64,000 nucleotides of DNA from Microcaldota archaeon (GTDB lineage Archaea > Micrarchaeota > Micrarchaeia > Norongarragalinales > SBBD01), in assembly GCA_016212475.1 (NCBI GenBank), contig JACRGC010000002.1:1-64000 (forward strand). The letters run 5' to 3'. Position 1 is the first letter of the stretch; the number at the start of each line of letters is the position of its first letter. Below, in pieces: positions 18,806 to 52,857 of this stretch. The position numbers were made by a program, and so were the translations under genes. The notes under the pieces are model-generated. The model saw nothing but the letters and a program-made list of their open reading frames with translations, did no database searches and was not told where the DNA came from.

Positions 18806-19432
18806 GTCGGTGATCATATGGAAAAATGGAATAATTTGGCAAGCAGGGAAATTGTTGAAAAGACAATTTCAAAATTGAAGGAGAATGGGATCGATGCATT
18901 TTTTGTCCCAAATGGGGAATCTGCACGGAAAAAGGCGCTCGAATTGATTCCAAAGGGTTCGGAGGTATTTTCCGCCACATCCACTACCAATGCAACAATC
19001 GGGCTAGATGGGGAAATCAACGAATCTGGCAATTATGATTCCGTCCGCAAAAAACTTTACTCAATGGATTCCAAAACCGATGGAAAAGAAATGAGAAAAC
19101 TTGGCGCTGTTCCAGATGTGGTGGTGGGCTCAGTCCATGCAATAACGCAGGATGGGCAACTTGTAATTGCCTCGGCAACCGGCTCACAGCTCCCGGCATA
19201 TGCGTACGGGGCGGGAAAAGTGATCTGGATTGCCGGATCCCAAAAAATCGTTGCTAATTTGGATGATGCCATGACGCGCATTTATCAGCATGTTCTTCCG
19301 CTTGAATCCGAACGAGCAAAAAAAGCCTACGGCGTAGCCGGAAGCAATGTTTCAAAGCTTCTGATTATAAATAAGGAATTCCAGCCCGCAAGGATGCACT
19401 TGATTATAGTCGACGAGAAGCTGGGATTCTAA
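18779..19432 (+). CDS. LUD domain (LutC/YkgG-like) protein; start probably 18818
   Basis: SATSTTNATIGLDGEINESG and VIASATGSQLPAYAYGAGKVIWIAGSQKIV. Confidence 0.85.
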   Translation: MSNIIYPILVGDHMEKWNNLASREIVEKTISKLKENGIDAFFVPNGESARKKALELIPKGSEVFSATSTTNATIGLDGEINESGNYDSVRKKLYSMDSKTDGKEMRKLGAVPDVVVGSVHAITQDGQLVIASATGSQLPAYAYGAGKVIWIAGSQKIVANLDDAMTRIYQHVLPLESERAKKAYGVAGSNVSKLLIINKEFQPARMHLIIVDEKLGF

Positions 19433-19534
19433 TTATACCCCTAATTTGCCTCTTTTTATTTTTTTCTTTTTTTCCTCCCTAATCGATTTCCCCTAACCAA
19501 AATCGTATTATAGCCTCCTTGCCATTAGTTTTCC

Positions 19535-20458
19535 ATGGCAATTGAGATTGGCTGGATTGGGCAAATTGAATCAAAATACGGCGAGGATGCCGCATATCGG
19601 TCGGCAAAACTTTTGATCCACAGTATTCGGTCAAAATCAAAAATAATGGCGGCAATAGACCTTCATGGGAAGAGGGCAATTGAGATATTTGTTTCAGTTT
19701 CCAAAAAAAGATATGCAGCAAAGTATTCCGTTTCCTTAGCTGCTGAATTGATGCTGGGCTTCAAAAAAGGGATTGATGTTTTGGAGAAATCCCCGGAAAA
19801 ATCAATCCAGCTTATTAGGAAATTCAAGGATAATGAAGGGGATGTCAAAACCATGGTTTCCCTTCTTGCAAAAGTGAAGCCGGACCAATTCGCTTACCTA
19901 AACAACCCCCGGCTGGTGCGTGATTCCGTCCAGGTTTTAAGCAAATTCGGGCTCGATGGGCACAATGCGATAAAGGCCATTCCTCAAGAATCCATAGCTG
20001 CAATTGCAAAATGGGGTACCCCTGCATTGAAAATTGTGCAGTTATATGGAAAAACCGGAATCGATGCAATAAACAGCTCTAGTTTTCCCCATTTTCTAAA
20101 ACTCGTAAAGGAGCACCGGATTCGGTTAACAAAAGGCGATCCGCACGCAATTTTAAATTACCGGCGTGGCGAAAAAAGCAAAAAACCCGGCTATTTCAAT
20201 TTCAGCGCCGGTTATTACCGTAAGGAAAATACTCCGCACAGGCTGGCATTTGCAATCAATTCATTATCGATGCATTATTGGGCGGAAAAAAGGGGCATTA
20301 AAATTGCCCAGAAGCGGGAAAATACCGTCAAGGAAAACGAGCACATTTCAAACATCCTAGTGGGCCCAAATCTTAACCATCTAAAGCCACCATCCAAACT
20401 CAATAGTCGAAAGCAAATTTCCGAACATGGAAAACCTATATCGACAGTATTTGCCTAA
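19535..20458 (+). CDS. Hypothetical helical protein
   Basis: 307 aa ORF. Confidence 0.6.
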   Translation: MAIEIGWIGQIESKYGEDAAYRSAKLLIHSIRSKSKIMAAIDLHGKRAIEIFVSVSKKRYAAKYSVSLAAELMLGFKKGIDVLEKSPEKSIQLIRKFKDNEGDVKTMVSLLAKVKPDQFAYLNNPRLVRDSVQVLSKFGLDGHNAIKAIPQESIAAIAKWGTPALKIVQLYGKTGIDAINSSSFPHFLKLVKEHRIRLTKGDPHAILNYRRGEKSKKPGYFNFSAGYYRKENTPHRLAFAINSLSMHYWAEKRGIKIAQKRENTVKENEHISNILVGPNLNHLKPPSKLNSRKQISEHGKPISTVFA

Positions 20459-49713: not shown

Positions 49714-49997
49714 CGCCTTGGCCGGGATTTCCTTGCCTGAAATTGGCGGAGCCGCAAAATCCTTTCTTTGGCGGAGCCACACGCCTTTCAATCAAAACTA
49801 TTTTTGATGAACCTTTTTTGAAAAAGGTTCAAAGAAAGGCAAGGCATTCGGACCCGGGTCAAGGGCTGTTTGTTAAACCGTTTTCTTCGATTCGAAAAAA
49901 CTCACTTCCTTTTCTTTTTCCGAAGCGCTTTTTCTTTTCGAGAAAAGAAAAAGGTTTAGCGACAAGCCCCTATGCTGGACCACTACACTACCAAGGC
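49714..49997 (-). tRNA. tRNA-Asp(GTC) with two introns (37/38, 92 nt, 49868-49959; 59/60, 119 nt, 49728-49846)
   Basis: Mature: GCCTTGG TA GTGT AGTGGTCCA GCAT A GGGGC TTGTCG^A GCCCT TGAC CCGGG TCCGAA^T CCCGG CCAAGGC G (73 nt). Intron 1 has a canonical BHB: TTGT/ACAA central helix, CGC and ACA bulges, TAAACC/GGTTTA inner helix. Confidence 0.88.
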
Positions 49998-50116
49998 ATC
50001 TAAGGCTATTTCTTTGGGAAGCAACAAATAAAAAGGACTCGTTGGCGCAAAATCAGGTTGGCTTAATGGGCAAATTTGGTTGCTGTCAAAATCAATCAAC
50101 CCCAAAATAAGTCAAA

Positions 50117-50515
50117 TCAATTCTGCAAAAGTTTTTCCGCAAACTCTTCAAGTGCAGAATCTTCCTGCTCCTTGCTGGCTTCAAACATGATGAAGCCATC
50201 GCGTATGTTGTTTATTGCAAAGTAGAATAGAAAAATTATAAGCCCTGCAAGAAGGGGGTAAAGATACCTTGCAATATCCGGAATCCTTTCGGCAAAATAG
50301 CCGTATAATACCGCAAGAAGAGTCGCAAGTGAAAAAATTACCGAAAGCACAATTGCCCCAATTGTCATCCTTCCAAACCCCTGGATTGAATTGGCTCCGG
50401 AAGCAGTGCGCAATACGTCCATGTTTTCCCGGATTTTTTGCCTTGTAATTATTTTTTGGGAAGGAGCTTGTGGAGCTATTAGCTGCCTTCTTTGAGATTC
50501 GGGTGTTATTGCCAT
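50117..50515 (-). CDS. Hypothetical two-TM membrane protein
   Basis: 132 aa, two hydrophobic helices. Confidence 0.6.
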   Translation of the reverse strand: MAITPESQRRQLIAPQAPSQKIITRQKIRENMDVLRTASGANSIQGFGRMTIGAIVLSVIFSLATLLAVLYGYFAERIPDIARYLYPLLAGLIIFLFYFAINNIRDGFIMFEASKEQEDSALEEFAEKLLQN

Positions 50516-50566
50516 GAATTGGTAAATGCAAGGCTGCTTATAATTATTGCGAAAAGAAGAAGAAAA

Positions 50567-50869
50567 TCCCGCAGGCCAGAATTCCAGAATTTAATGAATT
50601 CGCCACAAAAACGTTTTCTTTTGTAGCGACCCTACTTTTCTTTTCGAAAAGAAAAGCCGGGTCGTTTGAACTGGCAACCGTCTGATATCTGGCAGGCGAT
50701 TCGACTTCATGTGAAGTCAGCCGAACTACAGTTTCGTCATACCCTTTCTTTTTTTCCAAGGTTAGCGCATACGCAAAGGGCAAATTCCCTTTTTCTTTTC
50801 CGAAGCGCTTTTCTTTTTTGGGAAAAAGAAAAGGTTTGCAGACGCTCAGCCAGATTGAGCTACTGCGGG
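50567..50869 (-). tRNA. tRNA-Tyr(GTA) with three introns (30/31, 106 nt, 50733-50838; 37/38, 39 nt, 50687-50725; 59/60, 84 nt, 50581-50664)
   Basis: Mature: CCCGCAG TA GCTC AATCTGGCT GAGC G TCTG^A CTGTAG^A TCAGA CGGTT GCCAG TTCAAA^T CTGGC CTGCGGG A (74 nt). All stems pair; C1-G72 and A73 are typical of archaeal tRNA-Tyr; TATA-like TTTAAAAATATC upstream. Confidence 0.85.
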
Positions 50870-50989
50870 ATAGTATTCATTTGCAGAAGGATATTTTTAA
50901 ATGTATCAAATATGCCCTCGGATTTTGCCGCTTAATTCTTATCCTCCCCGTGCGTTTTTTTGGTTAAGTTTATAAATACTTTATGAGTA

Positions 50990-52504
50990 ATGACGAACAA
51001 GGTTGATCACATGACCATTAATTTCCGTTTTATTGGGCTATTTTTCTTGCTATTGATTGCAGTTGCCTCTTTTGCGCATGCAGCGGATAAAACCGTTGAT
51101 TCCGAAGCGCGCAAATACGTTTTGAAGGGCGAATCGGCGTCATATTTGATTTTAGCCAACATCACCGGAGGAAAAACCTACTATGTCGTGCAAATTGATG
51201 AGAAAAATTCATTTGTTTTTGATGAAAAGATAAACCCTGTGCTTGATGAGTCGATTCTTCTTGAAGTGCTAAAGGAATATTACAAGCAAAGCGGAGCAAC
51301 TGGCTTTACTGAAAACAGCAAAACCGAATTACTCTCCAAATTCAACCAATCAGATGCGCTGTTCAACGCTTGCCACTATGAGTTTTACGAATTCGTTGAG
51401 ACGAATTTCTTCTGGGCGCAGTTCAGATGCGTTGATGCTTCAACCGGCAAGGTTTGCGATGCCGCTTTTGCGCAAAGGAAAAGATGGAAGGATGCCTGGG
51501 AAATTTACCGAGAAAAAATACAGCTTTTGAAAACCGCTGCCTCCAAGTCGGAAACCGTGTCCGCACTTGAGCAGATTGAAACTGCTGCAAAGAAAGCAAA
51601 AAATGAAACATTATTCATGGATACCCCGGGCGGTTTTGAATACTTCCTTGGAAAGCCGATGAGCGAGGAAAACAAGTGCTTGTTCCAATACGGGCTTGTT
51701 GATGATGTGATTGCGCTTTCAGCGCCCGCAATGAGGAACAAAATCACCGATATCAATACCGAAGCAAAAGAACTAATCAATATCTACAATTCAAGGAAGG
51801 ATGTTGTAAAAGTCAAGGAGCTTCAATCTGAAGGCGCAACCGTATTGCAAAAGGCGGTCAATGCAACCGATTTCATTCGAATCAAGTTCGGGCCAACCGA
51901 CCAAAAATTCAAGGAAATTGAAGCCTCCTATGAAAAACTTAGGAGTGCAACCACTTTAGAATTAGCTTCAAAGAATTTCAATGACATGAAAACCAAATAT
52001 GATGAGCTCCAAAGCATAATCAACAACCCGGAAGGGCTGCTTTCGACTTACAACCGGACTTTTACCAACATAAATGCAGCTGAAATTGCAATCGAAGCTT
52101 CCAAGAAAAAATACGGAAACAATGACGATCGCGTGATCAAGATGAGCAATGAGCGCATCGAGCTTTCAAACCAGCTTGGAGCAATTGACAAGCGGATGGC
52201 AAACAACTCGGTTGTCACTGCAAAGGAAATCAAGGAAATCGGCGACAAAGCTGAAAATCTCAAGAACCGGGCGCTTGGATTGCCATCAAAGCAAAACGAG
52301 CTTGATCTTTCAGTAATTGCCGCAATTGTTGTGATTGTAGTTGCAATTATCGGCGTAATTCTGATGAAAAAAAGAAAATCTGGCGGCAATCACAAGGAAG
52401 TTAGCATAAAGGATGTGATGGGCTCTGGAACCGAAAAAAGGCAGCTCGAGCGCGAAAAGGTCGACGAGTCGCAAAACAGGAAGGCGATGTTCCCCAAGCT
52501 ATGA
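50990..52504 (+). CDS. Secreted/membrane-anchored hypothetical with signal peptide, coiled coil and C-terminal TM (start probably 51011)
   Basis: N-terminal FIGLFFLLLIAVASFAHA, C-terminal LSVIAAIVVIVVAIIGVILMKKRK. Confidence 0.7.
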   Translation: MTNKVDHMTINFRFIGLFFLLLIAVASFAHAADKTVDSEARKYVLKGESASYLILANITGGKTYYVVQIDEKNSFVFDEKINPVLDESILLEVLKEYYKQSGATGFTENSKTELLSKFNQSDALFNACHYEFYEFVETNFFWAQFRCVDASTGKVCDAAFAQRKRWKDAWEIYREKIQLLKTAASKSETVSALEQIETAAKKAKNETLFMDTPGGFEYFLGKPMSEENKCLFQYGLVDDVIALSAPAMRNKITDINTEAKELINIYNSRKDVVKVKELQSEGATVLQKAVNATDFIRIKFGPTDQKFKEIEASYEKLRSATTLELASKNFNDMKTKYDELQSIINNPEGLLSTYNRTFTNINAAEIAIEASKKKYGNNDDRVIKMSNERIELSNQLGAIDKRMANNSVVTAKEIKEIGDKAENLKNRALGLPSKQNELDLSVIAAIVVIVVAIIGVILMKKRKSGGNHKEVSIKDVMGSGTEKRQLEREKVDESQNRKAMFPKL

Positions 52505-52622
52505 AAAGGCACTTCTTTTTGCTTTTTTTATTTTTTCTTCTTTTCTTGTGTTTACCTATTTTTTTTGTTTTTCAATTGCCCAATTAGGGTTAAAAATATC
52601 CGCATTCCTATTATTTGCCTAT

Positions 52623-52857
52623 GCAGGGGTGGCAGAGCTTGGTCAAATGCGCAGGGCTTAGGTGAGCCTTTTTCTTTCACGAAAGAAAAAGCTTCGGGAA
52701 AAAGAAAGGTTTCTTAGAAACCCTGTGCCTTAGGGCTGCGAGGGTTCAAACGCCTTGCCTTTCTTTTGTAAAAGAAAGGCGTATGGCGCCGCCAAAGAAA
52801 ACAAATTAGCGGCTCCGCCGATTTTGTTGGCAAGGCATGAAAATCCCTTCCCCTGCA
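52623..52857 (+). tRNA. tRNA-Leu(TAG) with two introns (37/38, 57 nt, 52663-52719; 59/60, 93 nt, 52751-52843)
   Basis: Mature: GCAGGGG TG GCAGAGCTTGGTCAAATGC G CAGGG CTTAGG^A CCCTG TGCCTTAGGGCTGC GAGGG TTCAAA^T CCCTT CCCCTGC A (85 nt). TATA-like TTAAAAATAT upstream, T-run downstream. Confidence 0.87.

Follow-up and report, generated by a model that had tools for sequence, protein, structure and literature searches.

The route by which archaeal tRNA introns move has been called unknown in a review (PMC4090602), and the DNA stretch analysed here raises the question of what, in fact, is moving. The stretch, hereafter the window, comprises 64 kb at the start of contig JACRGC010000002.1 (C6) of a Microcaldota archaeon, whose draft genome amounts to 1.37 Mb in 17 contigs. 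Its genes for tRNA-Asp(GUC), tRNA-Tyr(GUA) and tRNA-Leu(UAG), all within about 3.2 kb, carry predicted introns with cores that are related between different tRNAs and different intron positions. An initial annotation of the window took these cores for a family spreading between sites, perhaps by reverse splicing. The Asp, Tyr and Leu cores proved to be members of dispersed repeats, further copies of which sit in the introns of many other tRNAs encoded by this genome. It seems rather likely that they are triplex-motif DNA repeats that insert at tRNA loci and survive there as removable introns.

Introns shared between different tRNAs

Similarity was measured by local alignment scored against shuffled sequences (z). 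The tRNA genes of the genome were surveyed from stretches around pattern matches; the compared genomes are drafts, and the introns were predicted from sequence. The best pair of introns from different tRNAs consists of the T-loop (59/60) introns of tRNA-Asp (49728–49846, minus strand; about 119 nt, ends ±2 nt; family B core) and tRNA-Val(UAC), which are identical at 108 of 117 positions over the entire intron (92% identity, z 79). An extra hairpin described for the Asp intron is real and occurs in tRNA-Val(UAC) as well. Within the window, the T-loop introns of Asp and Leu (50/62 identical, z 21) do contain all the strings that had been quoted as common to them. A second core had been reported for the Asp 37/38, Leu 37/38 and Tyr 30/31 introns; it was recovered by the comparisons of Asp with Tyr (42/50, z 17) and of Asp with Leu (39/45, z 16), and it is the three-tract module described below.

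Further pairs were found outside the window, including the introns of Lys(CUU) and Met (82/95 identical) and those of Ala(UGC) at 59/60 and Thr(CGU) at 37/38 (84/107). The latter pair is the cleanest example of one family at two intron positions. Near-identical introns in differing isotypes and positions, the mark of transposed introns of the Thermoproteales type, are present in this genome.

The tRNA genes of the window and their splicing

Neither ARAGORN nor Rfam detects the unspliced Asp, Tyr and Leu(UAG) genes, because introns interrupt them. The tRNA-Asp gene (49714–49997, minus strand) was reconstructed from the sequence with two predicted introns, the T-loop intron and a 37/38 intron placed by hand-splicing (49868–49959), which contains a family A module. 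The hand-spliced form received an ambiguous Asp/selenocysteine call from ARAGORN, since the trial intron boundaries were 1–2 nt off. The tRNA-Tyr gene (50567–50869, minus strand) has three predicted introns, and its spliced form is accepted by ARAGORN. The earlier reading of this gene was right about the 30/31 intron (50733–50838, 106 nt, with a family A module; hand-splicing and tract comparison) and overlooked the 59/60 intron (50581–50664), which has a family C core and is identical at 53 of 59 positions to the 59/60 intron of tRNA-Trp. The third Tyr intron, at 37/38 (50687–50725, 39 nt, hand-splicing), has no module. The tRNA-Leu(UAG) gene (52623–52857, plus strand), accepted after splicing as tRNA-Leu(tag), has two predicted introns: one of 57 nt at 37/38 (52663–52719), containing a family A module and identical at 44 of 49 positions to the tRNA-Leu(UAA) intron, and a T-loop intron of 93 nt with a family B core (52751–52843).

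The RNA fold of this last intron is a clear bulge-helix-bulge (TTCA/TGAA, bulges AAC and AAT) with cut sites that fit the assigned ends; the junctions of Asp fold into relaxed or ambiguous forms. An EndA of 401 aa is encoded in the genome; it has two matches to Pfam tRNA_int_endo and aligns over nearly its full length with the epsilon2 endonuclease of ARMAN-2 (PDB 4fz2, E = 4e-127). Judged by this alignment, the enzyme is of the ARMAN type with broad specificity; that type was reported to be able to cleave non-canonical introns (PMC4033280).

The introns measured (23–181 nt) are too short for a protein and encode no endonuclease, in agreement with the initial annotation, which had seen no homing endonuclease. 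Against Rfam, the window introns gave nothing at the gathering threshold and only chance-level matches (E > 1), and no ribozyme core was found; they do not qualify as group I, group II or homing introns. A known RNA family was also considered for the modules themselves and rejected, as the window has no Rfam match at the gathering threshold and in the twelve bacterial loci tested the module matched no Rfam family either.

A three-tract rule common to the cores

The cores of families A, B and C share one order: a pyrimidine arm (a), its hairpin complement (a′) and a third purine tract (a″), where a″ is the parallel, not the antiparallel, complement of a. The clearest case in the window is the family A module of the Tyr 30/31 intron (50787–50833, minus strand), in which CTTTTCTTTTTCCC goes with GAAAAGAAAAAGGG (parallel 14/14, antiparallel 8/14). 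The family A modules of Asp (49908–49953, minus strand; a CTTTTTCTTTTC, a′ GAAAAGAAAAAG, a″ GAAAAAGAAAAGG) and Leu(UAG) (52668–52709, plus strand; CTTTTTCTTTC / GAAAGAAAAAG / GAAAAAGAAAG) score 12/13 against 10/13 and 11/12 against 7/12, respectively, and the family B module of Leu(UAG) (52759–52803, plus strand; CTTTCTTTTGT ... CAAAGAAAACA) scores 10/11 against 5/11. The weakest case is the family C module of Tyr (50612–50656, minus strand; CTTTTCTTTTC / GAAAAGAAAAG / CAAAAGAAAAC), with 9/12 against 8/12; its third tract matches the arm except at the outermost base.

The same rule holds in samples collected independently of the third tract. Among relatives, 61 of 67 loci sampled by the hairpin only contain AAAAAGAAA at most 130 nt to either side of it, and 14 of 67 contain the equally composed control AAAGAAAAA (chance rates per one-sided stretch 0.11 and 0.16). 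In the loci of the tRNA search, a third tract matching the whole arm, with the outermost base left free, was parallel in 11 cases against 2 for the control in the own genome and in 9 against 3 in two sister genera (20 against 5 in total). Between the orthologous Val(CAC) introns of the own genome and the sister-genus genome G001, all three tracts differ jointly (TCTTC/GAAGA/AGAAG and TCTTT/AAAGA/AGAAA). An antiparallel (direct-repeat) third tract, which would form an alternative hairpin, was run as the control and is much rarer. RNA folding of the Leu 37/38 intron does pair a with a″, and such an alternative hairpin may form in single cases.

The modules have a homopyrimidine tract of at least 8 nt with a hairpin complement and a third purine tract mirroring the second, and by their base order they follow the rule for class II intrastrand triplexes. 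The second loop measures 6–7 nt in the three family A modules of the window, 11–14 nt in families B and C and up to 100 nt in nested copies, beside a limit of 1–6 nt in the ITxF database. Since the copying of DNA yields inverted or direct repeats but not mirror repeats, a three-strand constraint is the natural reading, and the modules may form triplexes. Several copies have a CCC in the loop of the hairpin and a matching GGG behind a″, and in L079 and other bacterial copies the hairpin loop is complementary to the sequence 3′ of the third tract. An H-type pseudoknot is therefore possible as an RNA form of the fold.

Repeat families across the genome

Outside the three genes, where the initial annotation had suggested looking for the cores, they were found in many other tRNAs of the genome. 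Family A (hairpin CTTTTTCTTT plus the third purine tract) occupies the Asp 37/38, Leu(UAG) 37/38, Tyr 30/31 and Leu(UAA) introns and three introns of tRNA-Ile(UAU); a related module lies in the Val(CAC) intron. It was also found in a probable tRNA-Pro gene (L036) and a tRNA 5′ fragment (L037), and 3′ of each of tRNA-His, tRNA-Ala(UGC) and a C/D-box-like RNA. No family A hairpin found by pattern in the own genome lies elsewhere than in or beside a tRNA (or a fragment of one) or a C/D-box-like RNA, although tRNA neighbourhoods make up about 3% of the genome. The Ile(UAU) gene (L047, C17 at about 19,300–19,800) apparently has five introns (about 8/9, 29/30, 37/38, 53/54 and 59/60), and family A modules lie in three of the five; according to a review, the maximum in Thermoproteales is three introns per tRNA. 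At the ends of contigs C3 and C5 (L041, L042), a family A module lies directly 3′ of a C/D-box-like RNA, and these contigs probably join, because their ends carry the same sequence.

Family B (CCTTGCC...) was collected with a gapped pattern; an ungapped pattern with mismatches recovered just two tRNA copies, owing to indels. Its twelve loci in the own genome comprise eight T-loop introns, two anticodon-loop introns and two intergenic copies. The anticodon-loop copies are those of Thr(CGU) 37/38, in sense orientation, and Thr(UGU) 37/38, which is inverted (L408, C14:16934). Of the intergenic copies, one (L404) follows radA, ahead of the next gene, and the other (L405) lies in the interval from rpS24e to rpS27ae. 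The T-loop introns have the ends GCCTTGCC/GGCAAGGC, of which the right one is missing from the intergenic copies.

Family C (outer stem GACAC/GTGTC) was found in introns of Arg(CCU), Arg(UCU), Tyr 59/60 and Trp 59/60 and also behind tRNA-Arg and tRNA-Val. The tRNA-Trp gene (L053, C12:65,000) has, besides its T-loop intron with the family C core, a long intron with C/D-box-like signatures. Family D is a G/C-rich counterpart situated 3′ of many tRNAs and inside the T-loop of Gly(CCC), and it may be a triplex motif of class III or else act as a terminator. Its layout is ...GGGGG-loop-CCCCC... with an outer stem and a third, C-rich tract (L001, L002, L006, L021, L036, L047, L366, L369, L371, L373). 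Besides the copies directly 3′ of tRNA genes, two T-loop introns carry family D copies.

Distribution in relatives, bacteria and viruses

The hairpin pattern is present in 23 of 118 relatives, and the reversed pattern has almost no matches. Among the relatives' copies with a third tract (n = 58), a T-arm is recognisable nearby in 40 (35 sense, 5 antisense), and 18 have none or an ambiguous one. The comparison of orthologous tRNAs in two sister genera revealed presence of the elements in one genome and absence in another. In G001, no T-loop intron was found in Asp (L344), Val(UAC), Tyr and Leu(UAG) (L337), and in G002 none was found in Tyr, Val(UAC) and Trp; in the Leu(UAG) gene of G002 (L366), a family D element occupies the T-loop. 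The 37/38 intron of tRNA-Asp has an ortholog in G001 (L344), with differing arms.

Family B at Thr(CGU) 37/38 is common to the own genome and G002, while none of the orthologues compared (Asp, Val(UAC), Tyr, Leu(UAG) and Trp in G001/G002) showed it in the T-loop. This weakly suggests a movement of family B from 37/38 to 59/60. A separate T-loop copy of the family exists in Gly(CCC) of G002.

The modules are not confined to tRNA loci. Internal three-tract modules occur in the 16S rRNA genes of three relatives (G005, L265; G009, L282; G028, L271), and the Rfam small-subunit rRNA (SSU) model spans them. In the G005 gene, which holds several modules, about 695 positions of the model extend across 1223 nt. 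An A/T-rich version of the module, TACTTTTTCTTTG-loop-CAAAGAAAAAGTANCAAAAAGAAA, its loop often complementary to the stretch that follows the third tract, was found in many bacterial groups (L075–L194, among the matches listed, which come from an exact-pattern scan of all genome contigs and are mostly bacterial). Viral contigs yielded 17 stretches with the module; their flanks look bacterial, and no link to archaeal viruses was seen in these 17 stretches.

Traces of insertion

Direct repeats that begin in a T-loop-like word were searched for and found in 16 cases; among 141 similar words elsewhere in the window, the control, there was none. About 13 of the 16 have one layout: an intact tRNA, next to it an insert, and after this a repeated copy of that tRNA's 3′ part, from the T-loop to the tRNA end or just past it. 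The duplicated parts are mostly 14–25 nt, with one longer, and exact duplicates of 14–21 nt flank inserts in relatives. The loci include L298 (G019), L343 and L360 (G001), L322, L324 and L330 (G002), L231 (G027), and L238 and L289 (G021). The inserts are elements of families A, C and D, inverted B elements or simpler hairpins, and their right-hand junction is the 59/60 site used by the T-loop introns. The duplicated tRNA 3′ ends look like a target duplication.

Two kinds of arrangement were observed besides these. An intergenic family B copy in G002 (L413, contig C165) is flanked by a diverged duplication, about 30 bp long, of the start of the neighbouring open reading frame. In the own genome, element-interrupted partial 5′ copies of tRNAs with duplicated flanks lie just upstream of the intact gene (L016/L037, C14:79,000–79,300; L023, C2:32,400).

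Origin of the introns

On the reading that we favour, short dispersed repeats of the intrastrand-triplex type (about 45–80 bp; a, a′, a″) would insert into DNA, preferring tRNA loci, namely the T-loop at 59/60, the anticodon arm or the site just 3′ of the tRNA. The insert would form a bulge-helix-bulge or relaxed motif with the conserved surrounding tRNA sequence and be excised by the epsilon2-type EndA, so becoming an intron. Inserts would be tolerated in tRNA genes because the genome encodes an ARMAN-type splicing endonuclease of broad specificity. We infer the insertion of the family at the DNA level, the splicing of each intron, an enzyme moving the repeat and the role, if any, of a real triplex. 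A bolder version, which is possible and which we put forward tentatively, holds that a gene-less triplex-motif element shared with bacterial intergenic repeats targets the T-loop or the 3′ end of tRNAs, either duplicating the 3′ end or leaving a spliceable intron, that three-strand folding is part of its movement, and that the tRNA introns of the lineage were born in this way.

Several observations weigh against insertion of such repeats. The identity of the Asp and Val(UAC) introns reaches the splice sites, as expected of transposition of whole introns. The 35:5 sense bias near tRNAs can be produced by selection or by an RNA route too, and it could reflect selection against T-rich antisense copies. 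The window copies show no target duplication. No transposase, integrase or recombinase was linked to the repeats, and no search aimed at transposases was made. For the best studied triplex repeats, those of E. coli, a stable triplex in vivo is unsupported (PMC4666352).

Spread at the RNA level, by reverse splicing of an excised intron into a different pre-tRNA, a DNA copy of which then enters the gene by recombination, would explain the Asp/Val(UAC) pair (108/117, to the splice sites), the dominance of the sense orientation and the presence of most copies in spliced RNAs. Under it, copies should be sense only and confined to spliceable positions in RNAs that the splicing endonuclease cuts, whereas the Thr(UGU) intron (L408) has an inverted copy, relatives have antisense copies, three copies lie between protein genes (L404, L405, L413), tRNA 3′ ends are duplicated, and bacteria, which lack such splicing, carry the module as well. 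This route is therefore unlikely for the family, and it was rejected as a general one in view of the inverted and intergenic copies. The spreading proposed in the initial annotation is supported by the Asp/Val identity, the Thr/Ala pair at two positions and the empty sites in the sister genera, but its suggestion of reverse splicing is not favoured. An RNA route for the whole-intron Asp/Val(UAC) copy alone is possible.

Equally doubtful is a structural constraint without mobility, under which bulky pre-tRNA introns would repeatedly evolve a three-tract fold (alternating hairpins, an H-type pseudoknot or an RNA triplex) that aids folding or processing. The covariation of the three tracts at orthologous introns, the loop CCC with GGG after a″ in several copies and, in L079 and other bacterial copies, a loop complementary to what follows a″ agree with it. 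Yet the non-structural parts of the Asp/Val and Ala/Thr introns are too alike for convergence, and intergenic and bacterial copies require no pre-tRNA. The shared flanking sequence refutes pure convergence for families B and C, not for family A.

It is less probable still that the modules persist because they signal transcription or processing events, T-rich tracts 3′ of tRNAs serving as archaeal terminators, and that the copies in introns are by-products. Many copies do lie directly 3′ of tRNAs (Arg, Val, Ala, His), and the modules contain T5 runs; most copies, however, are inside tRNA genes, where termination would be harmful, and the PIT motifs of E. coli are reported to have no promoter or terminator activity (PMC4666352). 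Local gene conversion or tRNA gene duplication, suggested by the proximity of the three window genes and by the alike introns of the related tRNAs Leu(UAG) and Leu(UAA), is very improbable and refuted as a sufficient cause, because the closest pairs join different isotypes with unlike exons on different contigs (Asp on C6 with Val(UAC) on C12, Ala(UGC) on C7 with Thr(CGU) on C16).

Comparison with known systems

In Thermoproteales, related introns were described in different tRNAs and positions, with a mechanism that was unknown and thought to act at the DNA level (2010 work, as described in PMC4033280 and PMC4090602). The introns reported here resemble them in being related across tRNAs and positions. 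They differ in belonging to an order of Micrarchaeota, in having three-tract cores that also occur in rRNA genes, trailers, intergenic DNA and bacteria, and in the existence of inverted copies and tRNA 3′-end duplications. For Caldiarchaeum, Sugahara et al. (2012, PMC3293823) proposed that a mobile element had integrated into a tRNA gene and disrupted it. There, as in the reading favoured here, the gain of an intron is tied to DNA entering a tRNA gene, and tRNA sequence is directly repeated, but the Caldiarchaeum element is 1.8 kb long, encodes a recombinase and sits at one locus, whereas the present inserts are gene-less, roughly 40–220 bp long, and numerous, at many tRNAs. The own EndA resembles the ARMAN-2 epsilon2 endonuclease (PDB 4fz2) by alignment and is predicted to act on the present introns.

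The closest structural counterparts are the PIT and TM motifs and the ITxF database (Holder et al. 2015, PMC4666352), which likewise comprise multicopy class II pyrimidine-purine-purine motifs with a reverse-Hoogsteen third tract; family D fits class III (purine-pyrimidine-pyrimidine) of that work. The E. coli motif is always intergenic, and tRNA, rRNA and introns are never mentioned in that text. The modules described here are A/T-rich, unlike the E. coli TMECO, and their loops often exceed the 1–6 nt of ITxF (0–10 nt in an earlier search, PMC4666352). No publication joining tRNA introns with intrastrand-triplex repeats was found in a literature search that left most subscription journals outside. 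The lineage offers a concrete and testable route for the spread of archaeal tRNA introns, as it contains fresh and inverted copies alongside empty sites and tRNA duplications at the flanks, which allow the RNA and DNA routes to be distinguished from sequence alone. Intrastrand-triplex repeats, hitherto studied as intergenic oddities, are found here within essential RNA genes, where their folding could affect the processing of tRNA and rRNA.

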